A stretch of DNA of 64,000 nt, from the NCBI GenBank assembly GCA_004297005.1, contig SCVA01000039.1, forward strand, positions 62,001-126,000, written 5' to 3'. The notes under the pieces were generated by a model. It was not told where the DNA came from, ran no database searches, and saw only the letters and a program-made list of their open reading frames with translations. The position numbers and the translations under genes are program-made. The stretch comes from Nevskiaceae bacterium. GTDB lineage: Bacteria > Pseudomonadota > Gammaproteobacteria > Nevskiales > Nevskiaceae. Shown in pieces: positions 16,513 to 36,058 of the stretch (its first letter is position 1; each line of letters starts with the position of its first letter).

Positions 16513-16586
16513 GGCTGGGTGGCAGAGTGGTCATGCAGCGGACTGCAAATCCGCGTACGCCGGTTCAATTCCGACCCCAGCCTCCA
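16513..16586 (+). tRNA. tRNA-Cys (anticodon GCA), integration target of the island
   Basis: A 74-nt cloverleaf. Acceptor GGCTGGG pairs with CCCAGCC, the anticodon stem GCGGA/TCCGC carries loop CTGCAAA (anticodon GCA), and CCA is encoded. Its 3' part, from the anticodon stem on, is repeated exactly at 35583-35633, so the element restored the tRNA on integration. Confidence 0.97.
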
Positions 16587-16588
16587 TT
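16538..16588 (+). repeat. attL: 51-bp direct repeat within tRNA-Cys
   Basis: The 51 bases from the 5' side of the anticodon stem to two bases past CCA are identical to 35583-35633. Location at a tRNA 3' half, with an integrase gene immediately inside, is the classic attachment-site pattern of tyrosine-recombinase elements. Confidence 0.92.
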
Positions 16589-16704: not shown

Positions 16705-17757
16705 TCATCCGCTCTTCGGTCCCTGCGACGGCCTCACCAGCTTGCCTTTCCGGTTGCGGATGTAGGTGTCGGTCATCCGGTCCGAGGCATGTGCGAGCAG
16801 CTCTCTCGCCTTCTCCCGCCCTTCCTTTTCATCACGGTCGGTGCCGGCCTTGGCGCGAAGGTCGCGGTACTGAAATGCCAGGATGCGTGCCCTCAGTTCC
16901 TCCGTGCTCGCCTTCGCCGCGGCCGCAGTTCGCGCCTTATCGAAGAGCCGACGAAGATTGGTCTGAGTCAGGGGCTCGCCGCGCTCGGTAACCAGCAGGT
17001 TGAGTGACGTCACTCGCATTGCTGCCTTGCGCTCGCGGATGCGCTGGACCGCATCGGCAAACAGCGATTCGACGACGATGCGAATCTTGTTGCCGGTCTT
17101 GCCCTGCTGTAGGTGCGCTACTCCGTCTCTGATGATGGCCTCACTCAGTCCGACCACATCTGCCGGCCGTTGACCCAACGCGTACGCCAAGTCCATCGCT
17201 TCCTTGAGCGGCGCACTGCCTTCGGCATGGACCAGCTTGTAGACGTCGTCCTCAGGGTAGTAGTCGCGCTTCGAGGTTTTGCCTTTGATGCCAGCGCAGG
17301 GATTGGGGAGCGAGGTGATTCCGTTCTCTCTACCGAAATTCCAGGCATGCGATAGCAAGGCCTTCTCGCGCGTTGCCCGAACGGGTGCTGCTCTCCACGT
17401 CATGTACTGACGCACGCGGACCGGGGTGATCGCATCCAACGGCGCCGGCGGGTCGTTAAAGAATCGCAGGAGGTTCGCGATCTCCTTTCGGTTGTCGAGC
17501 TGTGTTCGCGGCGCCTTGGTTGGTACTACGCGAGCGGCATATTCGTCGAGAAGATACTTGAGCGTTGGGGCGGCTGGCGTCTCGGCCGGCTGGCGCAGCT
17601 TGGCCCACTTGACCAGCATCAGCGAGTAGTCGCTGCCGAGCGGCAGTTCCTTGCGCGGCTTTCCGCCAAGGTCCAGGTAATAGAACACTTTGGTCCCGCG
17701 TGGACGCAGCCGCACGCCGTCGGGCAGATTCAGATTGACAGTGCGCTTCCGGCCCAT
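16705..17757 (-). CDS. Tyrosine recombinase (phage-type integrase) of the island, left end
   Basis: A 350-residue site-specific recombinase encoded next to attL and reading toward it, as expected for the enzyme that integrated the island into tRNA-Cys. The N-terminal 60 residues resemble the arm-binding start of phage integrases (VRLRPRGTKVFYYLDLGGK). A core-binding region precedes the catalytic domain. Catalytic elements: box I arginine in ALGQRPADVVGL, box II in YRDLRAKAGTD, and C-terminal LAHASDRMTDTYIR with the nucleophilic tyrosine. The box II histidine is replaced by arginine (codon CGC), whereas the related remnant at 35750-36058 has histidine (CAC). The start ATG lies one base after the stop of the DUF4224 gene. 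Confidence 0.9.
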   Translation of the reverse strand: MGRKRTVNLNLPDGVRLRPRGTKVFYYLDLGGKPRKELPLGSDYSLMLVKWAKLRQPAETPAAPTLKYLLDEYAARVVPTKAPRTQLDNRKEIANLLRFFNDPPAPLDAITPVRVRQYMTWRAAPVRATREKALLSHAWNFGRENGITSLPNPCAGIKGKTSKRDYYPEDDVYKLVHAEGSAPLKEAMDLAYALGQRPADVVGLSEAIIRDGVAHLQQGKTGNKIRIVVESLFADAVQRIRERKAAMRVTSLNLLVTERGEPLTQTNLRRLFDKARTAAAAKASTEELRARILAFQYRDLRAKAGTDRDEKEGREKARELLAHASDRMTDTYIRNRKGKLVRPSQGPKSG

Positions 17758-17758: not shown

Positions 17759-17974
17759 TCAGGCCGCTATTCGCTTCAGAGCGTTCGGCTGCCATTGCGA
17801 CTGCCCAGACTCTTCGATCTTGGAGGGAGTGCCCTCTATCGCTGAGCGAGCCACGACGGGCGTGCCGGCCACGTTGACCCAGAAGCGAATTCCACTATTG
17901 CGCAGCCAATTGATCTGCTTGCTGCGATGACGTGTGCCGGTGAGCATCACAATGTCGTCTTTGGTCAGGAACAT
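17759..17974 (-). CDS. DUF4224-type small protein, probable excision/integration accessory factor
   Basis: A 71-residue protein starting MFLTKDDIVMLTG and continuing RSKQINWLRNSGI and GTPVVARS, the recognisable pattern of DUF4224. These proteins usually sit directly upstream of phage-type integrases, and here the stop lies one base before the integrase start. A small DNA-binding role in recombination directionality is suggested by context; the biochemical function of the family is not established. Confidence 0.75.
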   Translation of the reverse strand: MFLTKDDIVMLTGTRHRSKQINWLRNSGIRFWVNVAGTPVVARSAIEGTPSKIEESGQSQWQPNALKRIAA

Positions 17975-21058: not shown

Positions 21059-21113
21059 GGCAAGGGACTAGGTCGGACGGCGGGTTGGGGCCGTGATGTG
21101 AAATGGGGTGGGG

Positions 21114-21437
21114 TTAGCGGGTCTCGCGCCGGCGGCGTGGCCGTCCGATCCGCCCAGGCACGACGTGCGGTAGAACGACAAAGAGCCCATAGCCGTCTGG
21201 CTTTCGCGAGGCATTGCGGCGCCGTGATGGAGCTGGCGAGGGATGCGCGGCCACCCGCTCGGGCCCGCTGTGGGGATCGAGATAGCGCTGCAAGCGAGCG
21301 AGCGTGCCCGGACGAGGTACGACCGCGTGATTTGCCAGCTCCTGCTGCAGCCTTTCGTTCACCGAAGCTGCAGATGAGGTCGGCTCTGGGGACGCCGGGA
21401 CATCTGGTGATGTAGAGCGGGGTGAGCTTCGTTTCAT
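21114..21437 (-). CDS. Hypothetical basic protein (island)
   Basis: About 107 residues from ATG 21437 (GGAAG upstream). Ser/Pro-rich at the start, then NERLQQELANHAVVPRPGTLARLQRYLDP and a very basic tail (RIGRPRRRRETR). It diverges from the XRE regulator gene at 21659. No family recognised; it might be a small regulatory or relic gene. Confidence 0.4.
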   Translation of the reverse strand: MKRSSPRSTSPDVPASPEPTSSAASVNERLQQELANHAVVPRPGTLARLQRYLDPHSGPERVAAHPSPAPSRRRNASRKPDGYGLFVVLPHVVPGRIGRPRRRRETR

Positions 21438-21641
21438 AGGAGTACTTCCAAGAAGCCGGAGAGGGCCGGCGCCGGATTCAGGAAAGCACCCCACGATCCT
21501 CTTGCTACATCTGTTTCCCGGACCGCGTTGCCGTCTTTTTATCTGGCGACGAGCGGTGGTCGCTGGGCGCATTCCCTTTCCGCCGTTCTAGCACAAATAG
21601 TCCAAGATGGTATATGCCAAGACGGGCAATAGTGTGATGGG

Positions 21642-21653
21642 GCGTTGCAACGC
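21642..21653. promoter_or_regulatory. Palindrome GCGTTGCAACGC upstream of the XRE gene
   Basis: A perfect 12-bp palindrome ends 5 bases before the ATG of the XRE regulator, where a ribosome-binding site would be. It is a plausible operator for autorepression; this is inference from position and symmetry. Confidence 0.4.
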
Positions 21654-21658
21654 GTCCC

Positions 21659-21976
21659 ATGACCAAGAAAAAGAAGACCATCCACACCCCGGAATATCGT
21701 GCGCTGCTCGCCCTGCTACGCGAGCGGCGGCGTCAATCCGGCGTGACGCAGGTGGAGGTCGCGGCGACCCTCGGCGAATCGCAGGCGTTCGTTAGCAAGT
21801 GTGAGCGTGGGGATCGCCGCATCGATCTGATCGATCTGCTGCGCATCCTCCGGGCCATTGGGGTTCCGCCGGATGAGTTCCTGACCGAATTGGAGGAGCG
21901 GTTTCCGGCACGGTCGGATGCACGTCGACGGACCGAAGCAAACGTTACTAGTGGTCGCGTACGCAAATCGAGCTAA
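21659..21976 (+). CDS. XRE-family helix-turn-helix regulator (island)
   Basis: A 105-residue protein. The HTH lies at about 17-72: LLRERRRQSGVTQVEVAATLGESQAFVSKCERGDRRIDLIDLLRI, with the recognition helix in ESQAFVSKCERG. The basic C-terminal tail lacks a recognisable effector domain. It probably controls its own promoter and perhaps the divergent minus-strand genes. There is no clear SD; the palindrome at 21642-21653 sits in its place. Confidence 0.85.
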   Translation: MTKKKKTIHTPEYRALLALLRERRRQSGVTQVEVAATLGESQAFVSKCERGDRRIDLIDLLRILRAIGVPPDEFLTELEERFPARSDARRRTEANVTSGRVRKSS

Positions 21977-22591
21977 TCCACCCCTGTTCGCAGGCGAAAC
22001 CTCGGCGCCGCAGGGCCGCTTTCGCGCAGAAGCGAGGTTGGTAATTGGTAATTGGTAATTTAAAAGTTACCAATTACCATGCTTCAGCACTCCCTCCTTG
22101 ATCGGAATGCGCAGGAAGCCTTGTTCTGGGGCGACAGACCTGCAACTCGCGCACCGAGACTGTCGCTGTGAGGCCGTCCTTCCATCCTCAGGTCAGAGGC
22201 ATGCACAGGCACCCGATCATGAATCGGATGCACGCACCAGGTGAGGAGAAGCGGTCGGTGGTTCCCATTGCGCAGCCGGACTGGCTGGTCCGGCACCGAA
22301 CGTGTTGGCCGAAAGTGGACGCCTTGCGAGGGTAATCGCTCGCAAATGTCGTGATGTCGGTCAGCCCCCGGTGCGTTCTGGAAGGTTCGAGGTGCTACTA
22401 ACGCCCGCACAGAGGCACTGCGTGGGCTGTGAAAGCAACTAATGGCTCAGCGGTGGCTCTGCCGTGTAAAAGGTGTAGCACTTTCTCCCCCGTACCCCGT
22501 CGAACTTTGCACGGTTGTACTCCCGCAGAGACATTAGGGCGACAGCACGCTTGAGTCAGCCGCGGTCCGGACCGCCCTTCCGCGATCTCGA
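21977..22591. other. 615-bp gap between the XRE gene and the anti-sigma gene
   Basis: No convincing gene is present. The only clear structure is the GGTAATT repeat at 22039-22080. A 108-residue minus-strand open frame (22084-22410) has no family resemblance or coding character and was not called. The gap may hold the end of an older insertion. Confidence 0.5.
22039..22080. repeat. Triple GGTAATT repeat with inverted copies
   Basis: Three tandem GGTAATT units (from 22040) are followed by AAAAG and the inverted TTACCAATTACCA (22067-22079), so the region can form a hairpin in two registers. It is A+T-rich in a GC-rich setting. It could be an operator, a terminator or the trace of an excised element. 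Confidence 0.55.
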
Positions 22592-23404
22592 TTACTCCGG
22601 CGTCAGGCGAAGCGGACTCGGCAGTGTGTTGGCCCTCGGGATGATCTGGTCCAGCGAATAGGAGAAGGCGGCCGGTGCCGACAGGTCCTGGTTGCGGAGC
22701 TTCAGCGGGCGGACGCCAAACGTCGAAAGATCGAGAGCGACGACGAGTCCGCCCCGCGTATCGTGGACGCAGGTGCCGCCGGTATCGATCACATAGCTGC
22801 TCGCGTTGAGCCGCCGTGCGATGCGGTGCATCGCCGAGCGCTGGCTGGTGGCGGGGTCACTGATAGTGACCGGGATCGAGTCGGGAAGCTGCTGGACGAG
22901 TGCCGCCCAGCCCTGCGGGTTCTGGGTGATCTGCGCCAGCTGGGCGGTGTCAGGAATCAGCCAGAGCTTCGAGAGGCAACCACCCGGAGAGCGGGCCGCG
23001 TTCGATGCGAGCCGGCGGACGAGCCGCGCATCCTCGATGAATCTCTCCGGCCCGGGCGCGACCAAGGCGGCCAGCGGCTCGGGCAGGTTTACCAGGGGCG
23101 GATACCTCAGGTCCAGGCCGGCCGCCGGTCCGGTGGACACGCGGACCGTGGGCGTCGTCACGGGGTCGTCGTCCCGCAGGTACCGCGTCACCCCGATCGC
23201 CAGCACCAGCGTGGCGGCCAGCGCCAGCGGCACGGGCCACCGCCGCAGCGCCGATATGCCCGGCTTCGGCGATGCCGCCACTGCGGCTGCGGCCTGTACG
23301 CGGCTGCCCAGCGCCGCCGGCGCCCTCGGCCGGTGCGCGCGGTAGCGGGCGAGCAGTTCGGCCTCGTCGACCTGCAGGTCCGGCGGCAGCGGCGACTCAT
23401 TCAT
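22592..23404 (-). CDS. Probable anti-sigma factor with one membrane segment
   Basis: A 270-residue protein. The cytosolic N-terminal part (1-52: PDLQVDEAELLARYRAHRPRAPAALGSRV) is followed by a single membrane helix (about 53-72) and a roughly 195-residue periplasmic domain with two cysteines (near 143 and 214). Its ATG overlaps the 3' end of the ECF sigma gene by 8 bases, the usual sigma/anti-sigma coupling. No zinc-binding HxxxCxxC motif is visible, so the family assignment rests on context and topology. Confidence 0.68.
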   Translation of the reverse strand: MNESPLPPDLQVDEAELLARYRAHRPRAPAALGSRVQAAAAVAASPKPGISALRRWPVPLALAATLVLAIGVTRYLRDDDPVTTPTVRVSTGPAAGLDLRYPPLVNLPEPLAALVAPGPERFIEDARLVRRLASNAARSPGGCLSKLWLIPDTAQLAQITQNPQGWAALVQQLPDSIPVTISDPATSQRSAMHRIARRLNASSYVIDTGGTCVHDTRGGLVVALDLSTFGVRPLKLRNQDLSAPAAFSYSLDQIIPRANTLPSPLRLTPE

Positions 23405-24065
23405 GGGCGAGCACCGACTTCAGTTTCGCGATGGCATAGCGGTAGCGGCTCTTCGCCGCCTCGTAGCCGATGCCCTGGATGGCCGCGATCTGCTCCAGCG
23501 GCAGCTCGCCCTCCCACCGCAGCAGCACCACCTGGCGCTGCTCCTCGCTGAGCTGCCGCAGCGCCACCCACAGCAGGCGGGTCTGGTCGGCGCTTTCTGC
23601 CAGGGCGGCCGGATCGTCCGGCGAGGCGGGCAGCCGGGACTCCACGCTTTCCAGCGAATCTTCCGGGCGATGACGGCGGATCAGCGTGACCGCCCGGTTG
23701 TGGGCGATGCGGAACAGCCAGTGGCGGAAAACGCCGGACGCCCGATAGCTGGCCCGCTGCCGCGCGAGACTCACGAAGACATCCTGCAGGCAGTCCGCCG
23801 CCTGGTCGGGGCTGTCGGTGCAGCGCAGGAAGTAGCGGTACAGGCCATCGGAAAAGCGCCGGTACAGCTCGGCCAGGGCCGCGGCATCGCCACCGGCATA
23901 CGCCAGCATCAGCCCCTCGTCGGAACGGTCTTCCGACAGGTCCGCAGACAGCGGCAGGTCGAGGGCGGGCGTTTCCAGCGTCAGGTATCCGGGGTGGGTT
24001 GGAGATTCTGCGCACTGGGGGGGGCAGCAGGCCAACCCTGCCCGGCAGTCCTCCCAGTGCCCCAC
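23397..24065 (-). CDS. ECF-type RNA polymerase sigma factor
   Basis: Sigma region 2 spans about residues 52-135 (LYRRFSDGLYRYFLRC, DCLQDVFVSLARQR, FRHWLFRIAHNRAVTLIRRHR). Region 4 is at about 165-218 (LRQLSEEQRQVVLLRWEGELPLEQIAAIQGIGYEAAKSRYRYAIAKLK). It should direct transcription of a small regulon, with the divergent genes from 24302 the obvious targets. The start is uncertain: GTG 24065 gives 222 residues, but about 40 of these precede the conserved fold, and a run of eight G (24017-24024 on the plus strand) lies in this segment, where an indel would alter the N-terminus. Confidence 0.85.
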   Translation of the reverse strand: MGHWEDCRAGLACCPPQCAESPTHPGYLTLETPALDLPLSADLSEDRSDEGLMLAYAGGDAAALAELYRRFSDGLYRYFLRCTDSPDQAADCLQDVFVSLARQRASYRASGVFRHWLFRIAHNRAVTLIRRHRPEDSLESVESRLPASPDDPAALAESADQTRLLWVALRQLSEEQRQVVLLRWEGELPLEQIAAIQGIGYEAAKSRYRYAIAKLKSVLAHE

Positions 24066-24301
24066 GCAAGGTATCGGAACCGCCGGTTGGCGGCCATCAG
24101 AACCGTCGATCCCGGCTGGTCTGCCCAGCCAAGGTCGCGCAAAGTTCTTGGGCGCGAAGTCGGCTCGCGGCTTGCATCGCCGAAGTGGCGGACGGTCCCC
24201 GGTGGGGCCCGATCACGAGCCAGCCAAGCGCAGTCACGAATTAACCCGAATCGGTGGAGTCGGCGTTATTCGTTCATCAGGGCAATGGAGGGGAACATCC
24301 G

Positions 24302-25507
24302 ATGCGGCAATGGGTACTCACAGGGCTGGTGCCTGGGCTGCTGACTCTCTACAGCGCGATGGCCGTTGCGGCAGAGCCGCCGCCGCCGTTCGTGCCCCAG
24401 ATGTCGATGCTGGCCATCGAGGCCCAGCGCGACGACGGTGAGTTGCGATACCTGCAACGGCTCACGGTACAGCCGCTGGTGGTGGCAAGCCCGCGGTCCA
24501 AGACAGGGTGGACCCTGAATATCGATCAGAGATCGACTGACCCCAATAAAAAGAATATGGCCTATCTCCTGAGTGCGTCTGCGGGGACCGATTCCAGATT
24601 GATCAGAGACGAATTGGGCGCGAAGTTCGTGGAACTGGAGCGGGTCTGCGGGCCAAACGGCAAGGTGTCCGTCATGACCACGCCAGCGCCCGAAGCGCCG
24701 GGCTCGAATGGGCAGATTGCGAAGCATATTCAGTTTCTCAAGGTTAAGGGTTGTACCGAGAACGGGATAATGAAGCCGGATGGTTATGACCAGACAGATT
24801 GTTTTGTGGATCGGTCTGATACGAAAACGTTGGGATGGGTCGAAGACTCCTGCTGCTTCTATTACCGAGACCTCAATCATTTCCTCGACCAGTGCACCGC
24901 CGAGGTGCGCGCCTACAAGCAGAAGCGGGGGTTGTTGCCGAAAGGCTTCCGCTATCAGCCGCTGACGGAGGAGCAGTGGACCGAGGAGCAATACCAGTAC
25001 TGGCAAGCGGGCCAGAACGCCGCCGATCCGGTGGCCCATTGGCGGGCCGCGCTCAAGCGCTGGCCTCTCTACGACACCAGCGCCTTCGGCGATCCGACGC
25101 GCCCCATCGGGTTCACGCGCTATCTCAAAGCCGAGTTGCGCCGGATCGCGATTCAGCGGGTGCGAGACGGATCATTGGCCGAAGCCGCGATGGCGTTTCG
25201 TAGCGCCGCGAACTCCGAAGGACAGCCTGGCCGAGAGGATCGGGACTACCTTTCCAGCCTACTGGTGAGCGCCGACAGGTCGGGCTTGAAGGCCTATTTC
25301 CAGCGCACCGAACCCAAGGATGGCAACCAATCCATTTCACTACGGTACGGCTCTTGTGATCGGGCGATGACCGATGCGCTCAAGGACGCCGACAGCCAGC
25401 GGTCCGGTTTCCCCGCCCCGGCCGCCAAAGCCATCGAGGCGGCAAGCCGTCTGGTTGACCTGGTGTGCAACGGTCCTTTCACACCCAATGAGGATTTACT
25501 CCCGTGA
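24302..25507 (+). CDS. Secreted six-cysteine protein with C-terminal extension (island family A)
   Basis: A 401-residue protein with a signal peptide (MRQWVLTGLVPGLLTLYSAMAVAA). ATG 24302 follows GGAGGGG. Residues about 30-213 form a domain shared with the protein at 32336-32992: VCGPxG, MTTPxP, GCTExG, DCFVDR, CCF and FLxQC, then RAYKQxRGLLP. Six cysteines are conserved (116, 151, 167, 184, 185, 198), suggesting three disulfides. The extra 190 residues at the C-terminus are helical. I recognise no described family. It starts the run divergent from the ECF sigma gene; its stop overlaps the next start. Confidence 0.75.
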   Translation: MRQWVLTGLVPGLLTLYSAMAVAAEPPPPFVPQMSMLAIEAQRDDGELRYLQRLTVQPLVVASPRSKTGWTLNIDQRSTDPNKKNMAYLLSASAGTDSRLIRDELGAKFVELERVCGPNGKVSVMTTPAPEAPGSNGQIAKHIQFLKVKGCTENGIMKPDGYDQTDCFVDRSDTKTLGWVEDSCCFYYRDLNHFLDQCTAEVRAYKQKRGLLPKGFRYQPLTEEQWTEEQYQYWQAGQNAADPVAHWRAALKRWPLYDTSAFGDPTRPIGFTRYLKAELRRIAIQRVRDGSLAEAAMAFRSAANSEGQPGREDRDYLSSLLVSADRSGLKAYFQRTEPKDGNQSISLRYGSCDRAMTDALKDADSQRSGFPAPAAKAIEAASRLVDLVCNGPFTPNEDLLP

Positions 25508-26871
25508 GCGCGATGCGCTGGCCTTTGCTCGGCTTGGCCGCGCTGGTCACGCTGTGGATCGAGTTCGTGCCGCCAGCGTTTGCACAGGCAACGCCCACGG
25601 CGACGCTGCAAGCGGGCACGACCGCCTATGGAAAAGGCGAATTCAACCAGGCATATGAACTGCTGCAACCGCTGGCCGAAGCCGGGGAGCCCGAAGCCGA
25701 GTGGTATCTGGGCCTGATGCACGTCCGGGGCGAGGGCACACCACAGGACTACACCAAGGCCATGCACTGGTTCCGGCGGGCCGCCGACCACAGCTACTCC
25801 CGCGCGTACTACGACGTAGCGCTGATGCACGAACTGGGCGAAGGCCGCCCGGTGGATCACACCATTGCACGGCAGTGGTACGAGCGTGGCATCCAGGCGC
25901 GCTGCGTGCCGTGTATGCGCCACCTGGGCTTCATCGACCTATATGGCGTCGGCGACGCCAGCCCCGCACCGCAACGCGCGCTGCAATGGCTGCGGGAAGC
26001 CGCGGATGCCGGCAGCGGCGACGCGGCGCTCTACCTCGGAGCCGGCCTGCTGAGCATGGAGGATGCCGGGGCACGGTCAGAGGCGCTGTTCCACCTTCAG
26101 CGTGCCGCGACCCAGGGCCATGTGCCATCGCGCGTGCTGTGGAACATCGGCCGCTGGGCCTTGCCCGACAACGCATCCGATCTCGCCGCCGCCCTGCGCG
26201 AACTGCGCACGCTCGCGAACCACCCGGACCTCCGGCCGCGCACCCGTGCGCTGCTGTGGTCGATCCTGACGCGCAGCGCGCTGGTGGGCCGCGGCATGGC
26301 GGTGGACCCGTCGCAGGCGCTGGCGGATGCCGCGCGGATGGATGCGGTCGTCAAGCAACTCGACGAGTCCTCCTTCGATGCCTTCGAGGACGGCTTGCGC
26401 CGTTCCTTCCTGTCATTCCGCTACGCGCCCTATTTCGATCAGGTGCGCGCCATCCTGGATGCACGCGTCGATGCGCAGGGTGGCAACCGCGAGCGCGCCT
26501 GCGAAGCGGCCTTCGACCTCGCGCGAGGCGTTCTCGACGGCTGGCTCGGCACGAGTGATGCGCTGCTCGCGCTGGAAGCGGTCGAGCGCTGCCCGGTCGA
26601 CGAAGAGGTGATGGCCGTGCTCGATCCCAACCTGCTGTTGCAATTGCTGCACTGCGAGGCTTCAAACGGCCTGGCCGCCTGCCGGCAGGAATACGGAGTG
26701 GACAACCCTGTGCGGCGAACGGCAACCCAGGCCAATCTGCAACGGGAGTTGGCGATGCTGGGGCTGTATTGCGAAGCGTGCAGGGATGGGATGAATTGGA
26801 GTGGGATTTTGGTCAGGCATCTAAACGTCAATGTAAATATGGGGCATGGCGGGCATGAAAAAAGGGAATAG
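25504..26871 (+). CDS. Secreted Sel1-repeat protein (island)
   Basis: A 455-residue protein with a signal peptide (to about residue 27, AFAQA). GTG 25504 overlaps the previous stop; ATG 25513 is an alternative. Sel1-like repeats occupy about 35-205: GEFNQAYELLQPLAEAGEPEAEWYLGLMHVRGEGTPQD, then DYTKAMHWFRRAADHSYSRAYYDVALMHELGEG and two more. Such helical repeats mediate protein-protein contacts. The C-terminal 240 residues have four to five cysteines and no recognised domain. It probably works in the periplasm together with the six-cysteine protein encoded just upstream. Confidence 0.78.
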   Translation: MSAMRWPLLGLAALVTLWIEFVPPAFAQATPTATLQAGTTAYGKGEFNQAYELLQPLAEAGEPEAEWYLGLMHVRGEGTPQDYTKAMHWFRRAADHSYSRAYYDVALMHELGEGRPVDHTIARQWYERGIQARCVPCMRHLGFIDLYGVGDASPAPQRALQWLREAADAGSGDAALYLGAGLLSMEDAGARSEALFHLQRAATQGHVPSRVLWNIGRWALPDNASDLAAALRELRTLANHPDLRPRTRALLWSILTRSALVGRGMAVDPSQALADAARMDAVVKQLDESSFDAFEDGLRRSFLSFRYAPYFDQVRAILDARVDAQGGNRERACEAAFDLARGVLDGWLGTSDALLALEAVERCPVDEEVMAVLDPNLLLQLLHCEASNGLAACRQEYGVDNPVRRTATQANLQRELAMLGLYCEACRDGMNWSGILVRHLNVNVNMGHGGHEKRE

Positions 26872-26884
26872 GAGTGAAATTGCC

Positions 26885-28267
26885 ATGAGCAATTCAAAAT
26901 GGGAGAAGCTCTATCGCAGTTATCGTAGTCCGAGGTTTACAGAACCCTCGGAGAAAATCGCCGCCGCCATGTTCGAGCTCATACTGGATGGCATTATAAA
27001 TAGCCCATCGAATTGGCAGGAAAACACTGAGACTGTAATGCGGAGTAACTCGCGCAGCCCATTCGCCTGCGAGCAGATGAAATGTCGCTTGGAATCTGGT
27101 CTGTACGATGAATTGTCCGAATTGGCCAGCGGATTTCGTGATGTGCGCTCGCACGAGAGTAGTCAACCATACGACGACGTCTATCAGGCCGCATTGGTTA
27201 TGTTGACGGTTGGATTCGCCTCCAGTCCAGCAGCAGAAGCAATCACGGGAAAAAGAAGTCTCTTCAGGGGACAAAACGATAGTTGCCGGACCATCTATCC
27301 ATCGGTCTATCAAGAACACCGGGGAGGAACGTTGAGCAGTCGCGCGGAACGTGCTGATCGTGCCGCGCGAATGGTCTCCATACGAATGAATTTGTCTTAC
27401 GACGACGCTCTCGCCGTAGTTCAGCACTATGGCGCGAGGAACGAGTTAAACACCCAGACATGGTTGATGGATGTCACATGGTCACCGTGGGTGGCGCTGT
27501 TTTTTGCATCGCACCACGATCCACGAAGCCTAAAGTTTGGATCGGAAGGCGTTGTCTGGGAGGTCTTCAGGAATGAATATGAAAAAATGACGGGAAACGG
27601 TGCAGTGCTCGGCAATATTCGAGTTTCAATGCCGCAAGCCGTGCCCAGAATCGATGCGCAAGCCGCAGCATTTGTTTCGGCTGCATGTCCCTCCATGATT
27701 GCCCAGTATCTTCCAATAGAAGTCTGCCGATTTCGGCAGCATCGGGGAGTTTTCTTTGAAGATGCCGAATTAGGAATCACACAGGCCGTGATCTATCCAG
27801 AATCGGACGCATGGCTGGATTCGATGCGGGCTATCAGATCTGATTTGGATCATGAAGATTTTGATTGCCATAAAGTTACCGGCAATGTTCCTCGCAGTGT
27901 TTATTGCGATCCTTACAAAACGGAGCCCTACTACGATTTATTATCTCAATGGGTTGTCCGATATGCGAAGCCGGAACAAAAAAATATTATCGGCCATTCA
28001 AATTTTACCCGCGCGATGGATTACTTGGTGGCATTTCATGTGGGCGTTGTTAGGTGCGACGGCGACCCCACATTCAATGGCAAATACCGAAGAGCATCAC
28101 TGCACAGGCTGGAAAAAGCGATGAGAAATTTGATCCAACAAGCAGAACGCAAGAATTGCGATTCATTGGATTTACGAGAAGCGATACTCGAGCCTTATTG
28201 CGGCGACGCTGGAGGAAACGACGTTTTGCTGTTGTTCAATTTGCTTAAACAGCCCCTCTCAAAATGA
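26885..28267 (+). CDS. FRG-domain protein (island)
   Basis: A 460-residue cytosolic protein. ATG 26885 follows GGAG (26871-26874); a longer in-frame start at 26846 overlaps the Sel1 gene. The FRG domain is recognised by LFRGQND (about 126-132), QHYGARNELNTQTWLMDVTWSPWVALFFAS (about 180-209) and surrounding hydrophobic strands. The domain is named for its FRG motif; its molecular function is not settled, and it is common on mobile elements and in defence neighbourhoods. No second domain is visible in the C-terminal 200 residues. The gene is visibly richer in A+T than its upstream neighbours, suggesting a different donor. Confidence 0.82.
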   Translation: MSNSKWEKLYRSYRSPRFTEPSEKIAAAMFELILDGIINSPSNWQENTETVMRSNSRSPFACEQMKCRLESGLYDELSELASGFRDVRSHESSQPYDDVYQAALVMLTVGFASSPAAEAITGKRSLFRGQNDSCRTIYPSVYQEHRGGTLSSRAERADRAARMVSIRMNLSYDDALAVVQHYGARNELNTQTWLMDVTWSPWVALFFASHHDPRSLKFGSEGVVWEVFRNEYEKMTGNGAVLGNIRVSMPQAVPRIDAQAAAFVSAACPSMIAQYLPIEVCRFRQHRGVFFEDAELGITQAVIYPESDAWLDSMRAIRSDLDHEDFDCHKVTGNVPRSVYCDPYKTEPYYDLLSQWVVRYAKPEQKNIIGHSNFTRAMDYLVAFHVGVVRCDGDPTFNGKYRRASLHRLEKAMRNLIQQAERKNCDSLDLREAILEPYCGDAGGNDVLLLFNLLKQPLSK

Positions 28268-28371
28268 ACATATCCATGATCACCGCGAAATTGCGCATCG
28301 CCATAAAATGAGACGATAAGTTCCAGAATAGTCATTATTGCCAAATAAAACCCGCAAGAGGATTTTTAAGA

Positions 28372-30351
28372 ATGAACAATTGTCTATCGCTACGCGCTGG
28401 AATATGCCTGACACTCTATGCGGTAAGTTTTTCTTGTTTTTCACAGGCCATTTCTTACGAGGAATCGATAAAAATTGTCAAACGACAAAATTTGGAAATT
28501 CCTCGAATGCTCGAACAGATCGATTGTGAGATTGATCGCCAGCCCTCAGGAGATGCGCCAAAAAACAATGGATTGGAATACTCGCCAGAAATTCAGAGTT
28601 TAATTAAACTTGGCGAAAAGAATGGTGCAGCAGGATTGGCAGGACTAAAGTTATTGGCGGAGAAAGGAAATGCGGAAGCCATGCAGTACATCGGCGTCTT
28701 GCATGCCAATGGGGAATGGAGTTTAAAACAGGATTACGATGAAGCTTGGCGTTGGTTTGTAAGGGCTTCGGCCAAGGGAAACCTCTTTGCAGATCGCAAT
28801 TTGGGTTTAATGCTACTTTTCGGACAAGGCGGATACGAAAGACCAGACCAAGCCTTCCATCGTTTTCTGCGCGGAATACGAAGGGGGCATCACGGAAGAA
28901 GAACAGCGGTTGATCTCATACACGCACTGATTGTCTTAACAACCGATGGGTACTTTGATTCAGATCGGCCCGTCCAAAGTAGCCAGTGGAATTTAGGCCC
29001 AGATCCCATTGGAATCGCATTGGCATGTCTTGAGAAGAACTATTCGCTTTTTGAAGCGTACGATTTTGCTCGTCTGCTAGGATCAACGAGTTCCGTACTG
29101 CCTCCAGATTTTGAACAGCTCACGGTTTTCAACTCTGAGCGTTATCACTATCCGCGCGTAAAATCCAGATTTGAAATCGATCCGGGAAAAGTCAGAAATA
29201 ACTTCAATTCAATCGCTGCAAGCCGCCTTTTAAAATTAATCGGCAAGGGCGCGTTGGAAACTGCTTATCGTGAGCTTGACATCAAAAACAAGGAGAGCGT
29301 CGAAAGGTACAAAAAGGCCATACAGGCCAATTACTATTGGCCGATTAACGAGAGCATTATTTCCCATAGCTGGACGTATGAAAAGATTCGCCTTCGCAGC
29401 CCTGATGAGCGATGCGCTTATAGCACTATATGCAGTGCTCTGACAGTCAATGGCTACGGTCAGTCTGCAAATTTATCTGTAGTGCTGAGCGAGTTAATGC
29501 AGAAAAAAGATGGCGACAGCGAAGAATACATACTAGCCGCGCGTAGAGATCTTGCCAGACTTTCCCGGCTTTTACTGCCTGGAGCAACCATTACCAGTGC
29601 GGATCGATACTTCGCCTATAGCGTATTCCTGCAAGATGCCAGTTACGTTACGCCTGTTTCCACATTTATTGATTCAGTCAATACTTTGCTGCTGAACCGA
29701 ATACTTGAGTGGGGCATGCGGGAGGCTCCAGCCATGATTCAGAATGGGCGCGCCGATTTGGCGCACGACACTTTGCGCGCCGGCTTAATGAGTGGAAAAA
29801 TAGATTTTTTAGACTACGCTCAGATGGCCAAAATATGGAATCACCAGCTACCCAGCAATTCTATCGATTATGAAAACTGCTTGTGGCCGCCAGGATTTGA
29901 GTTTAGCAGCATGGGATTTAGGACCGCATTCGGAAGGGCCCCGAACTGTCGTGACATGTGGGCCATGGACTTAAAGTTTCATGACGCAGAAGGGAGGGCT
30001 GAGATTTTGGCGGCTAGTTCTGCAGGATGTACTGGCTCCGGAACCGGATCTGCGTTCTTGTTATCTATGTCGGACTGCGTAGAAGAGAAGCTGAACAATG
30101 CCGGATTATCTTCCGCTTCCGCACACCCGATAGTTTGGATGCGCGGAAAGGTGGATAGTTTGTCGGAATTTAAAAAGTCGTACGTTCAATGTCTGCGCGA
30201 TAGATATTTGTCTAAAATCGCGTGCAAATATGATGCAGCTAATGCATTATTTCGCAAGCCCGTTCTTTCACGAGCGGCAGTAACTGCTCCGCCTTTTCCG
30301 TATGCGGCCAATCCCGGTTGGGTCGATTTATTATTCCCCATGAGCCGATAG
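28372..30351 (+). CDS. Secreted Sel1-like repeat protein, A+T-rich (island)
   Basis: A 659-residue protein with a signal peptide (MNNCLSLRAGICLTLYAVSFSCFSQA). Sel1-like helices occur at about 75-170: GAAGLAGLKLLAEKGNAEAMQYIGVLHANGEW and DYDEAWRWFVRASAKGNLFADRNLGLMLLFGQGG. The remainder is long, helical and of unknown kind, with several cysteines in the last 160 residues. Base composition matches the FRG gene rather than the GC-rich Sel1 gene at 25504, so these two genes probably arrived together. Not related to the first Sel1 protein beyond the repeats. Confidence 0.72.
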   Translation: MNNCLSLRAGICLTLYAVSFSCFSQAISYEESIKIVKRQNLEIPRMLEQIDCEIDRQPSGDAPKNNGLEYSPEIQSLIKLGEKNGAAGLAGLKLLAEKGNAEAMQYIGVLHANGEWSLKQDYDEAWRWFVRASAKGNLFADRNLGLMLLFGQGGYERPDQAFHRFLRGIRRGHHGRRTAVDLIHALIVLTTDGYFDSDRPVQSSQWNLGPDPIGIALACLEKNYSLFEAYDFARLLGSTSSVLPPDFEQLTVFNSERYHYPRVKSRFEIDPGKVRNNFNSIAASRLLKLIGKGALETAYRELDIKNKESVERYKKAIQANYYWPINESIISHSWTYEKIRLRSPDERCAYSTICSALTVNGYGQSANLSVVLSELMQKKDGDSEEYILAARRDLARLSRLLLPGATITSADRYFAYSVFLQDASYVTPVSTFIDSVNTLLLNRILEWGMREAPAMIQNGRADLAHDTLRAGLMSGKIDFLDYAQMAKIWNHQLPSNSIDYENCLWPPGFEFSSMGFRTAFGRAPNCRDMWAMDLKFHDAEGRAEILAASSAGCTGSGTGSAFLLSMSDCVEEKLNNAGLSSASAHPIVWMRGKVDSLSEFKKSYVQCLRDRYLSKIACKYDAANALFRKPVLSRAAVTAPPFPYAANPGWVDLLFPMSR

Positions 30352-30481
30352 CAGGGTTCCACCGTAAAACTCGTTGCCGAATGCTCAGAAAACGCGACTA
30401 AATCGCAATGAATAGAGTGGCTATTAGGGACGCGCTAGAAAACCCGATGCTAACTGCTCAGTAGGGTAGTGAACCCGAACG

Positions 30482-30640
30482 CATGGGGCCCTTGGCGACG
30501 CTCTGTATTCGCAGACACCTCTGGCCAGCGAGGCGATGATGGACAAGGGATTAGTGCCCAGCGTCGCGCCTATCCCCGCACTGGTCAGCGAGTTCGCTTC
30601 GCAGAAGCTGCAATTGAAGTCCGACCAAGGATTCCAGTCC
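30482..30640 (+). pseudogene. Truncated duplicate of the start of the next secreted-protein gene
   Basis: 30484-30633 closely matches 30854-31003 (offset 370 bp) and stays open in the corresponding frame (GALGDALYSQTPLASEAMMDKG..., matching GALGDALPSQTPLASEATMDKG...). It lacks the signal peptide and start codon and diverges after KLQLKSDQ. It looks like a relic of a tandem duplication or recombination next to the intact gene. Confidence 0.7.
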
Positions 30641-30755
30641 CATGGAGAGCGCAGATGCTCAGTGAGATCGCTACAACTTCAGGCGATGACGCCAGAACTT
30701 CGTCCTTGCTATGGACCAGATCGGCGTCATCCTTGAACAGAGCAGGTCGGGTGAA

Positions 30756-32273
30756 ATGATGAACACAGGGTGGGGTATTTTTCCGATTCTTTTCGCACTC
30801 CCGACCTTGGCGGCGGAGCCGTTCATCCTGATTCCTATCGCGCTGCAAGCGCGTGGGGCCCTTGGCGACGCTCTGCCTTCGCAGACACCTCTGGCCAGCG
30901 AGGCGACGATGGACAAGGGATTGGTGCCCTGTGCCGCGCCTGTCCCCGCGCTGGTCAGCCAGTTGGCGTTGCAGAAACTGCAATTGAAGTCAGACCAGCC
31001 CTCGTCTTCCGTCGTCACCGAGGCCTACTGCACGCATGAGCAGTTTCCCGCCGTAGTGTTTGTTCGGGTCAGCGAACCGGCTCTTCGTGGTACGGCGGGC
31101 TACTGCGGTGCAGCTCTGCTGCGGCGACACGAAGGACGGTGGCGCACGCTGTGGACGGGGTTGGTGCCGGAAGGTGAGGATCAGATGCAGGGACCTGAAC
31201 CCGATGGCGCCGGTGGGCTGCGGTTCTGGTTCGAGCATGCCGACCCGGAACAGCCCACCGTTCGGGAAGGCTGGCAATTGGTCGCCAACCCTGCGGCATC
31301 GCCAGGCTGTGCCGTTCCTGCGGGCCACGTTTCGGCCCAGGCACTGGAAGCGGGCGCCCTTCAGCTCTGTGCCCGTTGGTTTGGAAAAGGTCCGGCACGA
31401 AAGGCGGTATTCCAGCCAGCGATGCCCTACGACACCGGAATCGTGAGCTGGCCGCCCTACCGGCTCCAGCATGATTCCGGCGAATTTGCGCCGCCCTCGC
31501 CGGGCGAAGGGGCGGAATTCATCCAGGCTTTCCGTCCGTTGGAGTTGACGGCCGTGTGCCGGCAAGCGTCCGGCTCGCATGCGCTGCTGGTGCAGCAGCA
31601 GTGCGAAGGCACCGGCTGTGCGCCGCTGATGCGTCGGGTTGAGCAGAGTGCGAATGGCTGGCGCGAGCGCTGGCTCGGCGACCGGGGCTGGAAGCCGCTG
31701 GAAAACCTGCTGCGCTGCGGGCCGGGGGAGCAGGCGCTGAACCCGGAAGCGCCGTTCAAGCCCTGTGCCTGTGCCGTGGACGATGCTTCGTCGCCAGCGA
31801 ACACGGTGATGGATTTTGAGAAGACGCTGCGGGCACTGGGTGCCGCCCGGCCGCTACCGGTGCCGGACAACGACGCGCTGGACCTCTGGCTGCACGCCGA
31901 AGGGCCGGAGATTGCCAAGCTGGCGGGGAGCTGGGATCGCCTGTGGCAGCGCGCTTCTGCGGCCCCCTTGCAGCGGCTGGACGATCTGGCTGCCGGTGAC
32001 TACCGGGTGCAGCGCCTGCGCATCGATCAGGGGTGGGATTCCGCCGAGTGGGTGCAGGTACACCATCCCCGCAGCGGCCTGCGCGCCTGGCTCAAGGCCC
32101 CGCTGATGGACAGCCGGCGCGGCGAGACGGTGTTTTCCAGCGAAACCGACTGGCGCCTGAGCGCGTCGGGTGTGCTGCAGGTAGATCTGGGACGCTCGGC
32201 CGGTGGCGGTGCGGTGGCCTGGAATATCGGCGATGACATCGCGCGCTGGGGCTTTCGGCCCGTTTCGCAGTGA
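30756..32273 (+). CDS. Secreted cysteine-rich hypothetical protein (island)
   Basis: A 505-residue protein; ATG 30756 (next to ATG 30759) gives a signal peptide MMNTGWGIFPILFALPTLAA. The mature part is rich in paired cysteines spread along the chain (AYCTHE, GYCGAA, PGCAVP, LCARWF, VCRQ, QQCEGTGCAP, LRCGPG, PCACA) and in tryptophan and glycine, suggesting an exported beta-rich, disulfide-bonded protein. No family recognised. The segment after the signal peptide is duplicated upstream at 30482-30640. Base composition returns to GC-rich here. Confidence 0.65.
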   Translation: MMNTGWGIFPILFALPTLAAEPFILIPIALQARGALGDALPSQTPLASEATMDKGLVPCAAPVPALVSQLALQKLQLKSDQPSSSVVTEAYCTHEQFPAVVFVRVSEPALRGTAGYCGAALLRRHEGRWRTLWTGLVPEGEDQMQGPEPDGAGGLRFWFEHADPEQPTVREGWQLVANPAASPGCAVPAGHVSAQALEAGALQLCARWFGKGPARKAVFQPAMPYDTGIVSWPPYRLQHDSGEFAPPSPGEGAEFIQAFRPLELTAVCRQASGSHALLVQQQCEGTGCAPLMRRVEQSANGWRERWLGDRGWKPLENLLRCGPGEQALNPEAPFKPCACAVDDASSPANTVMDFEKTLRALGAARPLPVPDNDALDLWLHAEGPEIAKLAGSWDRLWQRASAAPLQRLDDLAAGDYRVQRLRIDQGWDSAEWVQVHHPRSGLRAWLKAPLMDSRRGETVFSSETDWRLSASGVLQVDLGRSAGGGAVAWNIGDDIARWGFRPVSQ

Positions 32274-32335
32274 GCGCGCGCGGGAACAGGGTGGCCAGCA
32301 GAACAGCGACAATGAACGACCCAAGGGAGAGGCGC

Positions 32336-32992
32336 ATGCGGACACCACGCCAAGGGTTGATCGCCTTGATGCTGCTGTGTGGGCCGCTGGTATTGTCGGC
32401 GGAGTCGCCGACCTCGGCGCCCAGCGGGTCGCTGTCGATGAAGGTTTCTGAGTATCTCATCTATGGCGATGAATACCGGCTTCAGCGCAAGACGACGGTT
32501 GATCCGCTGGTCATCATTGATCCGAAGTCGAAGACGGGCTATTCGATCAACTGGGGCAAGGATCGCGACGAAAAGGACTATCCGACGTTTCTAGTCATGG
32601 TTGCAGGCTCGACAGATTGGGATCTCAAGTCTGTTCGCGACGAGGCGGCGCTCAAGCTCAAGGAGTTGGGTGATGTCTGTGGCCCTGCGGGCAGGATCAC
32701 GGCGATGACAACCCCATCTCCGCAATCCTTGGGACGGGGCGGCAAGGTCGCAATGCACTTCAAAATGATCGCTGTGCGCGGCTGCACCGAGGCGGGCGTG
32801 TATAGCGAAGCAGTCAACTCCAAAAAGAAGGGAGTGGATTGCTTCGTGGACCGTGAGGACGAGCGATTCGCTGAAATCGTGAAAGAGCCGTGTTGTTTCA
32901 ACTGGAAAGATTTCGACGGCTTCCTTAACCAATGCATCGCGGACATCCGCGCCTACAAGCAGCAGCGCGGACTGCTGCCCGCCCCGCACTGA
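32336..32992 (+). CDS. Secreted six-cysteine protein, short paralog (island family A)
   Basis: A 218-residue protein; ATG 32336 follows AAGGGAGAGG and gives a signal peptide (MRTPRQGLIALMLLCGPLVLSA). It aligns along its whole mature length with residues 30-213 of the protein at 24302-25507: PKSKTGYSINW, VCGPAG, MTTPSP, RGCTEAG, DCFVDR, PCCF, FLNQC, then RAYKQQRGLLP where it ends. The six cysteines (115, 150, 169, 186, 187, 200) are all conserved. It lacks the C-terminal extension of its paralog. No described family recognised. Confidence 0.75.
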   Translation: MRTPRQGLIALMLLCGPLVLSAESPTSAPSGSLSMKVSEYLIYGDEYRLQRKTTVDPLVIIDPKSKTGYSINWGKDRDEKDYPTFLVMVAGSTDWDLKSVRDEAALKLKELGDVCGPAGRITAMTTPSPQSLGRGGKVAMHFKMIAVRGCTEAGVYSEAVNSKKKGVDCFVDREDERFAEIVKEPCCFNWKDFDGFLNQCIADIRAYKQQRGLLPAPH

Positions 32993-32999
32993 GGCCCGC

Positions 33000-33638
33000 A
33001 TGCCGACCCACGAACCCGCACCGACTATGCAACGGGCTTTCGAGATTCAGCTCGAATACGCCTGGCGGGTGACGCGCTGTGCGCTGCGGTCCGACCAGGA
33101 AACGGAACGGGTGCTGCGAGCGGCACTGGCCGAAGGCGGAACTGCGGTCCGGGGCGAAGACGGGCTTTCGCTGGGGAATACGCTGCCGAAGGCCATCCTG
33201 ACCGCGCGCCCCTGGGCCGAACTACTCATTGAGGACCACGGCGCCGACCTGCCGTCGCGTCTGCGCGATGTACTGGCGCAAACTCCGGAGGCGCGACGAC
33301 CGGACGAAGCGCTGATCGCCGCGCTCTGCCGAGCCGCACCGGGGCCGAGACTGCTGGTGCTGGGCTCGCTCTGGTCGATATTCAGCCCATCGAGCCTCGC
33401 CGAGGCCGCTGGCGAGACCGAAGCCCATCTGTTGCTACGTGCGGCGCCCCTGGTGCAGGCCATGGATGCCGCCTGCTCGCCGCTGCCCGATACCGAGCCG
33501 CCAACGGCCGCCTGGGCCGACCCCGGGCGCTGGGGGCTGGTCCGTGCGGCGCTGTCGGCCTGCGGTGAACTTCGTCAGGCGCTCACACCGCCTCCCGGAT
33601 TCCTTGGGGATGTGGCTACTTCAAGTAGACCTGCTTGA
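33000..33638 (+). CDS. Hypothetical protein (island), last cargo gene
   Basis: A 212-residue cytosolic, Ala/Leu-rich helical protein (EIQLEYAWRVTRCALRSDQETERVLRAAL...). It starts 7 bases after the stop of the short six-cysteine paralog, so it is probably co-transcribed. The opening helices faintly recall sigma-factor-like or regulator proteins, but no motif supports a call. Its 3' end overlaps the convergent recombinase gene by 23 bases. Confidence 0.5.
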   Translation: MPTHEPAPTMQRAFEIQLEYAWRVTRCALRSDQETERVLRAALAEGGTAVRGEDGLSLGNTLPKAILTARPWAELLIEDHGADLPSRLRDVLAQTPEARRPDEALIAALCRAAPGPRLLVLGSLWSIFSPSSLAEAAGETEAHLLLRAAPLVQAMDAACSPLPDTEPPTAAWADPGRWGLVRAALSACGELRQALTPPPGFLGDVATSSRPA

Positions 33639-34497
33639 CGTATCTTCCACGGCCCTCGCCGTGCCCAAGGTTGCGGCTGGCCGCGGCTAGGGCTTGATTC
33701 TCTGTCAGACCTTCTTCGAGCCCCCGCTTTCGGACGGCACGAGTGAATGAGTAACGCAATGCATGCCCTTGGAAGCCCAGACGATTCAAGCAACTCGAAT
33801 ACATCCCCAGGGCGCTCTTCTTCGATTTCGCCGGAGAGCCGTCGTCGTATTGAGCCAGATACCCGCCATTGGCCTCGGCGGCGGCCAGCGCTGACTTAAT
33901 CGCTTCGAGCGCGCGAGCAGGGTGGGGAGGTTCCACGAACCGCTCTCGCCCTCCCTTGGTACCGTCCACGACATACACGCGTCCTTCCTTTGGCAACTGC
34001 TTCAGCCATTGCCTCAGCCGGAACGCAGGAACGCAAACGGCCTCGGATCGACGCAGACCAACCGTTTCCTCCAGTTCCATCACGGTCGCAATCCAACCGC
34101 GATCCAACTTTTCTACTTTCGACTTGATTGTCGATACGACCTCTGGGCTCGCCGCCGTCTTGGTCCCATCGCGACAGCGTTTTCCAAGACCTAGAGCAGC
34201 ATTTGAGTAGTTCGGGTCCTTGGCCAGACTGCTTTTGCCGACCTGAGTCAGCGCCACGCGAATAGCGGCCATACGGTTTTGTCTGGTGCCGACGGATTTC
34301 ACCTGCGCGTTCAAGTGCACCGCATAGACCCTCAGCTCACGGCCGCCAATCTGGTCGGCCGAATGAATTTGAACGTTTGCGCGGAACATCGCTGCACCAA
34401 AATCGGCATACGCCTGGTGGCGAGCCTCCAGCGTCAGGTGTGCGCCGCCGGCCTTTTTCGACTCCGCTGTAAGTGAACGGATCAGCTTCTTGCTCAT
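33616..34497 (-). CDS. Second tyrosine recombinase (integrase-domain protein), right end of island
   Basis: A 293-residue recombinase unrelated in detail to the left integrase. The catalytic set appears complete: box I arginine in ETVGLRRSEA, box II histidine and arginine in GHALRYSFTRA, LGHGEGRGRYVKQVYLK with the final histidine and the tyrosine nucleophile. It belongs to the integrase-domain proteins often found in integrative and conjugative elements. Lying about 1.1 kb inside attR, it may be a separate element's enzyme captured in the island, or may act on the structured DNA at 34560-35075. Confidence 0.8.
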   Translation of the reverse strand: MSKKLIRSLTAESKKAGGAHLTLEARHQAYADFGAAMFRANVQIHSADQIGGRELRVYAVHLNAQVKSVGTRQNRMAAIRVALTQVGKSSLAKDPNYSNAALGLGKRCRDGTKTAASPEVVSTIKSKVEKLDRGWIATVMELEETVGLRRSEAVCVPAFRLRQWLKQLPKEGRVYVVDGTKGGRERFVEPPHPARALEAIKSALAAAEANGGYLAQYDDGSPAKSKKSALGMYSSCLNRLGFQGHALRYSFTRAVRKRGLEEGLTENQALAAASRNLGHGEGRGRYVKQVYLK

Positions 34498-34559
34498 GTC
34501 GTGGTACTCCGATTAGTTATCGAATCAAATTTGTGAGAGCCCCCTCTCCCCGTCGCGGC

Positions 34560-34633
34560 CATGGGCCTGACCGACTGTTTCGTCAGTCCGTGATGCACAC
34601 GGACTGATTAGAAGAAACGACCGCAGGCCCATG
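34560..34633. other. 74-bp three-stem hairpin upstream of the second recombinase
   Basis: The outer arms CATGGGCCTG (34560-34569) and CAGGCCCATG (34624-34633) are perfectly complementary. A middle GTTTC/GAAAC pair and a perfect inner stem CAGTCCGTG/CACGGACTG (34584-34592, 34598-34606) with loop ATGCA are nested inside. It starts 63 bases upstream of the recombinase start. It could be a structured RNA or a folded recombination site. Confidence 0.7.
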
Positions 34634-35037
34634 AAACGCTGCGAGTTGAGTTTCGGAACCCCTGAGCCAGGCCCCTTTTAGGGACCTAGAGCGGCGTGCG
34701 CCGCGCCCACTTCTGGGCAGGTTGGCCGGCCGGAGCCGGAGCTGTTTCTTCTGGTGCTGCGCTTTACTGCAGAGATGCGTTGAGAAGAGGGGGCAGAATG
34801 CGCCGTCACGGTGTCGGTAACGGCTGGAATGTAGGTTGTGCATGGTTTTGCTGGTCACAAAAAAATGCGTCACTTTTACGGTGGCAGGTAAAAGTAGTAG
34901 CTGCGCGTATCTCGCCGAGGTGGAATGCCTCGGCTGGTAGCGCCAAGTTTTCAATTACAAAGGTGGGTGTGCGCCTTGGCGTGCCGTTGCCGGGTTGAGG
35001 CGAAAGCGAGCGGTTGGCGCAGCGGTCGTCTAGCCTG

Positions 35038-35075
35038 CGTCACACCTTGCCGATGAGATCGGCAAGGTGGTGACG
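35038..35075. other. Long perfect hairpin, 12 bp plus 5 bp stem
   Basis: CACCTTGCCGAT (35043-35054), loop GAG, ATCGGCAAGGTG (35058-35069) is perfect. It is extended by CGTCA (35038-35042) and TGACG (35071-35075) across one bulged G. No U-run follows, so it is not an ordinary terminator. Confidence 0.75.
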
Positions 35076-35582
35076 TGACGGAAGACCTCGGTGGGTGTCC
35101 AGATGAGGCTGGATCGGTGGGGTGCTGTTGCCGACAGCTCGGGTCTTCGCCCTGACGGGCAGAATTCTGTTGATGCTTCACTGCCGCATTCGCATTCTAC
35201 GGCCGAGGGATCGACGCACTTCCTTTGAGACCCCAGAAATGAGTCCATCCCAGAGCCGTTGCGACGCGGCTACGAGAGTCTAGAACTACAGTCGCAGCAG
35301 GGCTGCGAGGTGCAAAGAATTGCTGGGTGTTGGTTGCGGAGGTTCAGCTCGCCACCGTGCATACATACTAGGACACTGACCGGTAACAGTGGTGGGGCGA
35401 AAGACACGGTTTCGCCGGACTATTTGCTCACGCTTCTGGCACAGCAACCCGTCAACTAGCTCTGGTTGACTGTTCCGCAAATCAGCAGTCGTAGTCGTGC
35501 CTGCAAGGGTTTCAGCGGCGCGAAAATGCTACAATTGCGGAACAATTTGTGGATTAAGTTGCTGATTCAGATTGATAACGAT

Positions 35583-35633
35583 GCGGACTGCAAATCCGCG
35601 TACGCCGGTTCAATTCCGACCCCAGCCTCCATT
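35583..35633 (+). repeat. attR: 51-bp copy of the tRNA-Cys 3' half
   Basis: Identical over 51 bases to 16538-16588. It carries the anticodon arm, T arm and 3' acceptor but no 5' half, so it is not a functional tRNA. It marks the right boundary of the 19-kb element and at the same time the left boundary of the decayed second element. Confidence 0.92.
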
Positions 35634-35720
35634 CCTGATCCGGAATGGAGATCGCGTCAGATCAAGGCGCTCACGATACTAAATCCACTCTTCCAAGGTG
35701 GTTGTCACACGCTCGTCTTG

Positions 35721-35749
35721 TTCTGCAATTTCGAGCTGACTTCCGCAAT
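35721..35749. promoter_or_regulatory. Paired TTCYGCAAT motifs, candidate arm sites of the second element
   Basis: TTCTGCAAT (35721-35729) and TTCCGCAAT (35741-35749) are 20 bp apart and begin 88 and 108 bases after the att copy, exactly as on the left side of the island. Confidence 0.5.
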
Positions 35750-36058
35750 TGATCCGCTCTTGCGTCCCCGTGACGGCCTCACCAGCCTGCCTTGTCTGTT
35801 CCGAATGTAGCTGTCCGTCATTCTGTCAGAGGCATGTGCGAGCAGCCCTCCCGTTTTCTCCCGGCCTTCCTTCTCGTCGCAGTCTGTGCCGGTCTTGGCG
35901 CGTAGGTCGTGGTACGGAAAGCCAGGATGCGTTCGTGCAACTCTCTCTCGGTCGTCTTGACCGCCGCCTGCATTGCACGCCTTGTCGAATGGGCTGAGAA
36001 AGGTCGTCTGAGCCAGCCGTTCTCTCATTAATAGCTTCGGTTGCGACGTCACCGTCAC
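35750..36058 (-). pseudogene. C-terminal remnant of a tRNA-Cys integrase (second tandem element)
   Basis: The translated fragment HDLRAKTGTDCDEKEGREK...LLAHASDRMTDSYIRNRQG matches the C-terminus of the left integrase almost residue for residue. The stop at the equivalent position is lost (TGA became serine), the stretch before box II is out of register, and everything upstream is missing. It retains the box II histidine that the intact integrase lacks. It lies the same distance from its att copy as the intact gene does. Confidence 0.85.

Follow-up and report, generated by a model that had tools for sequence, protein, structure and literature searches.

Do genes that stand side by side on a mobile island work together, or have they simply come to rest at the same place? 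A 64,000-nucleotide stretch of DNA from a Nevskiaceae bacterium (referred to here as the window; the assembly comprises 3.57 Mb in 63 contigs and is 93.65% complete) raises this question through a compact locus. In it, an extracytoplasmic function (ECF) sigma factor and a putative anti-sigma factor are encoded divergently from seven plus-strand genes, among them two for six-cysteine (six-Cys) proteins, two for Sel1-repeat proteins (Sel1A and Sel1B), one for a cysteine-rich (cys-rich) protein and one for an FRG-domain protein (Table 1). A first-pass annotation of the window took the whole for one island-borne, envelope-sensing module. The island is upheld below, and the membership of all these genes in one system is unproven. 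The account tentatively preferred here, itself somewhat doubtful, is that of a layered island cargo: an ECF switch would locally control exported envelope proteins, and the FRG protein would be independent of them.

That the locus is island-borne is strongly supported. Judged from its sequence, it is cargo of a genomic island at 16538-35633 that a phage-type tyrosine integrase, int1, inserted at the tRNA-Cys 3′ end. Three observations carry this reading. The 3′ end of the tRNA-Cys, together with its flank, recurs exactly over 51 nt as a direct repeat at the opposite end of the island, 19,045 nt downstream, and this attachment (att) sequence is 100% identical over 49-51 nt to the tRNA-Cys of congeners. 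The phage-type integrase lies beside the tRNA gene. Finally, DNA similarity to four congeners ceases at the end of the tRNA-Cys, and the island proteins have no match in those loci. int1 has 46 relatives in IMG/VR at about 36-41% identity; no phage structural or conjugation genes were recognised among the genes scanned. Similarity also extends on either side of the right att repeat at the same constant 19,045-nt offset, for which the simplest reading is that two related elements lie in tandem, the right-hand one apparently degraded. Right of this repeat, the stretch 35583-36483 holds the 3′ end of another integrase, related to int1. The second integrase of the island, int2, belongs to another family; its gene is convergent with the small open reading frame (ORF) that ends the cargo, with a 23-nt overlap, and its product is about 35% identical to an “integrase domain-containing protein” of enterobacterial plasmids.

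What, then, is the origin of the sigma factor? The first-pass annotation described an ECF sigma factor with an overlapping membrane anti-sigma factor. The ECF domains, the gene overlap and the hydropathy peak agree with this, but the anti-sigma factor matches no Pfam or other family model. The sigma factor contains sigma regions 2 and 4 only, and its true start is uncertain and may be internal. Its partner shows a single hydrophobic peak, near residue 58, and carries two cysteines in what is predicted to be its periplasmic part; partial, N-terminal relatives of it are found beside ECF genes in six other genomes and once more in its own. Relatives of the sigma factor, in the same genome and in related ones, are about 35-44% identical, and their anti-sigma factors match in the N-terminal part only. 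Pfam identifies the adjacent lipoprotein as YfbK_C/vWF_A/VWA at two of the loci, and at three more the equivalent position is taken by a lipoprotein-like ORF, about 590-700 residues long and not Pfam-scanned. Six such neighbourhoods of about 20 kb each contain no relative of the island six-Cys, Sel1, FRG or cys-rich proteins. Since the relatives pair with a YfbK/VWA lipoprotein and lack relatives of the island proteins, the island pair is a diverged relative of a chromosomal switch with a different partner. The association of YfbK/VWA lipoprotein, ECF sigma factor and anti-sigma factor recurs as a chromosomal cluster in related genomes (L026:9040-12417; L027, L029-L031), and a literature search on these words gave no description of it.

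The divergent gene set is dominated by exported proteins: five of its seven products have signal-like N-termini (called by eye and from a hydropathy peak at residues 5-9, with no dedicated predictor). The earlier picture of Sel1 and disulfide-rich proteins acting outside, with the FRG protein in the cytosol, fits the sequences. The long and short six-Cys proteins are 36-37% identical and have all six cysteines in common. The family was sought in 146 relatives, 85 genomes of the order, 369 of the class, GTDB contigs, IMG/VR, and plasmid and phage records, and no convincing match outside its own genome appeared in any of them. The GTDB and IMG/VR pattern scans reach only close relatives and the whole-genome searches cover limited samples, so that claims of rarity hold only within the sets searched. 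One match from the class sample (G273, E 0.005, residues 216-276, one internal stop) was discarded, as it lies outside the six-Cys domain. Library scans gave no family for the long six-Cys protein, the cys-rich protein or the small ORF. A structure model of the six-Cys protein had a low-confidence pLDDT (predicted local distance difference test) of 45, and a fold search on it returned nothing below E 0.38. The start of Sel1A overlaps the stop of the long six-Cys gene by 4 nt. The long orphan C-terminal part of Sel1B (residues 181-659) has no relative in 398 genomes of the phylum. Matches to the cys-rich protein in two related genomes were rejected, one being antisense within a long opposite-strand open frame and the other covering 74 residues of a protein that we take to resemble MltG.

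Base composition divides this gene set. The guanine-plus-cytosine (GC) content is 0.61-0.72 before 26.8 kb, drops to 0.42 at that point, stays at about 0.35-0.53 up to 30.4 kb, and returns to 0.6-0.68 afterwards. The low-GC segment (about 26.8-30.4 kb), at about 46-50% GC overall, contains exactly the FRG and Sel1B genes, and the outer parts (six-Cys/Sel1A on one side; cys-rich, short six-Cys and small ORF on the other) have host-like GC. At the right edge of the segment lies a stump of the cys-rich gene. The divergent cluster is a mosaic, and the GC step and the position of the stump suggest that FRG and Sel1B entered a cluster already holding a duplicated cys-rich gene, the order of events being reconstructed from these traces.

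The FRG protein itself scores 37.7 bits against a Pfam cut-off of 25, and alignment with other FRG proteins shows the LFRGQ, QHYG, LMDVT..P..A.FFA and R..AQ stretches to be kept. Its E-value in the genome survey is weaker (1.6e-9, versus 5e-13 to 6e-27 for other FRG genes), and no close full-length relatives were found in the collections searched. FRG genes are present in 11 of 117 relatives, its own genome counted. Because the neighbourhoods of nine of those found elsewhere, each about 10-19 kb, hold no relatives of other island proteins, FRG is a component that occurs alone elsewhere. Frg has been placed in the ADP-ribosyltransferase (ART) superfamily, with an antiviral, possibly NADase role proposed (PMC9503650). 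FRG and Sel1B were also considered as a toxin-antitoxin pair, a reading abandoned in view of the signal-like N-terminus of Sel1B.

The preferred account, a layered cargo, assembles these parts as follows. The first layer would be an ECF/anti-sigma switch whose origin lies in pairs of the kind found with a YfbK/VWA lipoprotein in relatives. The second would be the divergently oriented genes for exported proteins, disulfide-rich and Sel1, a cluster shaped by tandem duplication, with six-Cys genes at both ends and a broken cys-rich copy. The third would be the two-gene FRG/Sel1B segment, which differs in base composition and would have been inserted into the second layer. In operation, the periplasmic part of the anti-sigma factor may sense envelope disturbance and free the sigma factor, which in turn would direct transcription of the pair itself and, divergently, of six-Cys/Sel1A. 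Once outside, the exported proteins could bind and neutralise an envelope-directed attack or stress. FRG, a candidate NAD-consuming effector against phage, would act on its own in the cytosol. ECF control of six-Cys/Sel1A is a reasonable proposal, given that the two gene sets diverge from a short intergenic region, that the first two genes overlap and that the products are exported.

Several results weigh against this account. No AAC/GTC-type ECF motif is seen in the intergenic region between the divergent gene sets, and no two-part motif common to them exceeds shuffles; this promoter test is weak, since the AAC/GTC-type motif is likewise unseen upstream of five chromosomal ECF relatives. FRG carries a six-residue insertion and reads TWLMD where most aligned FRG proteins have TRLLD or TRLMD, which makes its activity uncertain. 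Its structure model (pLDDT 36) is unusable for recognising an ADP-ribosyltransferase fold, so that neither this nor the six-Cys model lends help. The sensing and protective functions are reached by inference. Lastly, no second instance of the cluster was found in the collections searched, so conservation of linkage is unusable as evidence, and the locus looks like assembled island cargo and not like a proven system. Literature searches found no paper on this gene combination.

About as likely as the layered account is accidental accretion, in which genes of no common purpose gathered at a tRNA-Cys hot spot, the ECF pair and FRG both working apart from the six-Cys and Sel1 proteins. The mosaic GC and the gene remnant speak for such a history, as do the second integrase and the integrase remnant, which imply repeated events; moreover, the ECF relatives have a different neighbour, the FRG relatives lack these neighbours, and no promoter link between the sets was seen. 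Against it, the cys-rich duplicate and the presence of six-Cys paralogues at either end suggest one cluster diversifying locally, and to these are added the predominance of exported products and the operon-like overlap of the first genes. The idea of one envelope-sensing module is left unsupported: the ECF pair and FRG both occur elsewhere with other neighbours, the former beside YfbK/VWA and the latter without six-Cys, Sel1 or ECF relatives nearby, the FRG/Sel1B segment differs in GC from its flanks, and no promoter motif common to the sets was found; the six-Cys proteins gave no relative to compare.

An orphan immunity array, in which exported Sel1 and disulfide-rich proteins would neutralise effectors injected into the periplasm and the island would spread protection without a weapon, is unlikely. 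Duplicated exported paralogues and the lack of a type VI secretion system (T6SS) sheath gene in the bacterium's own genome fit such a prey-side role, but the island genes scanned include none recognisable as coding for an effector, VgrG or PAAR, and the role is drawn by analogy with the Sel1-repeat immunity proteins of P. aeruginosa PldB for proteins of which the six-Cys and cys-rich ones match no family. (An XVIPCD search had no positive control; being uninformative, it was not used.) Highly improbable is an envelope defence of a kind so far undescribed, carried by the island: an ECF switch of VWA-linked derivation would induce the exported six-Cys/Sel1 set, with cytosolic FRG as a second line. 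A single anti-phage system, with exported proteins sensing phage at the envelope, the ECF pair relaying the signal and FRG killing or arresting the cell, is likewise highly improbable: the FRG/PDC-S15 match, the presence of the ECF pair and FRG in one island and the ART-superfamily placement (PMC9503650) are set against an FRG gene in a compositionally foreign segment, FRG relatives lacking such partners, no ECF motif and no other instance.

Table 1. Coordinates in the window of the island features, from left to right, with the evidence for each
Feature	Coordinates	Strand	Evidence
tRNA-Cys (gca), integration site	16513..16586	+	att core starts inside gene at 16538
Left att repeat	16538..16588		51 nt, identical to 35583-35633
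int1, tyrosine integrase, phage-type	16705..17757	-	Phage_integrase 2.8e-10; phrog_1 3.8e-32
DUF4224 small protein, excisionase-like position beside int1	17759..17974	-	PF13986 5.5e-17
Putative single-span anti-sigma factor	22592..23404	-	8-nt overlap with sigma gene; hydropathy peak
ECF sigma factor	23397..24065	-	Sigma70_r2 5.5e-13, Sigma70_r4 8.8e-12; sigma70-ECF 6.4e-27
Long six-Cys exported protein	24254..25507	+	ORF, hydropathy; ATG at 24302 likely
Sel1A, exported Sel1-repeat protein	25504..26871	+	PF08238 4.6e-24; matches solved Sel1 proteins
FRG-domain protein	26846..28267 (start 26846, 26858 or 26885)	+	PF08867 4.1e-9; PADLOC PDC-S15 3.5e-12
Sel1B, second exported Sel1 protein	28372..30351	+	PF08238 8.8e-7, just under curated cut-off
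Truncated cys-rich duplicate (codons 30-84)	30476..30640	+	89% over 148 nt; 75% amino-acid identity, 3.4e-18
Cys-rich exported protein	30711..32273 (start 30711 or 30759)	+	ORF; hydropathy peak
Short six-Cys exported paralogue	32270..32992 (start 32270 or 32336)	+	E 9e-44 to long paralogue
Small orphan protein without signal-like N-terminus	33000..33638	+	ORF; hydropathy
int2, second integrase, other family (Integrase_1 / Phage_int_SAM_2)	33616..34497	-	1.7e-20 and 1.1e-11
Right att repeat (tRNA-Cys 3′-end copy)	35583..35633		exact 51-nt copy
Integrase 3′-end remnant, related to int1	35718..35920	-	83% over 203 nt to 16673-16875

Every ORF named in the first-pass annotation is present where it was placed, although the range drawn around the locus left most of the anti-sigma gene (22592-23404) outside; the island boundaries, the two integrases, the GC step at FRG/Sel1B and the truncated cys-rich duplicate go beyond it. 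Elsewhere within the island, two more exported orphan proteins, one of them lipoprotein-like, are encoded on the minus strand at 19321-21058. Just right of the island, 36483-39764 encodes an exported protein of 1093 residues that combines sortilin/BNR-type repeats with a Ser-Gly-rich tail. Beyond it, 39724-54194 is occupied by a run of alkyl sulfatase, DUF1302, DsbA-like, AMP-binding enzyme, DUF1329 and P450 genes, suggestive of a cluster for the degradation of hydrophobic compounds.

How does the locus compare with known systems? Like the Sel1-repeat immunity proteins (Tli5b of P. aeruginosa PldB; Klebsiella Sel1E), it has multiple Sel1-repeat proteins, exported or unassigned, but here Sel1 makes up only part of each protein and the island has no associated effector or T6SS, no effector family having been recognised among the scanned genes that neighbour the Sel1 genes. 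With the FRG-domain and PADLOC PDC-S15 candidates it has in common an FRG domain above the Pfam cut-off and several conserved stretches, while the island protein differs in its extra N- and C-terminal parts, its six-residue insertion and TWL for TRL; the locus thereby adds a divergent member to a poorly tested group. The chromosomal YfbK(VWA)-ECF-anti-sigma cluster shows the same succession of a sigma factor, 35-44% identical, and an anti-sigma factor with a similar N-terminal part, whereas the island pair has no YfbK gene, an unlike anti-sigma C-terminal part and a divergent exported cluster upstream. Should the ECF pair indeed control the exported proteins, the locus would be a case of a mobile island equipped with an envelope-stress switch of its own, and the six-Cys proteins would form a new exported family. 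A further likeness is to tRNA-integrated islands with phage-type tyrosine integrases, which also combine an integrase beside tRNA-Cys, a 51-nt repeat of the tRNA 3′ end, variable cargo and the remnant of an earlier related element; different here are the absence of recognisable phage structural or conjugation genes among those scanned and a cargo mostly without family. The locus is tRNA-site island cargo with orphan genes, a known kind, and as it stands it mainly shows how such cargo builds up in layers.
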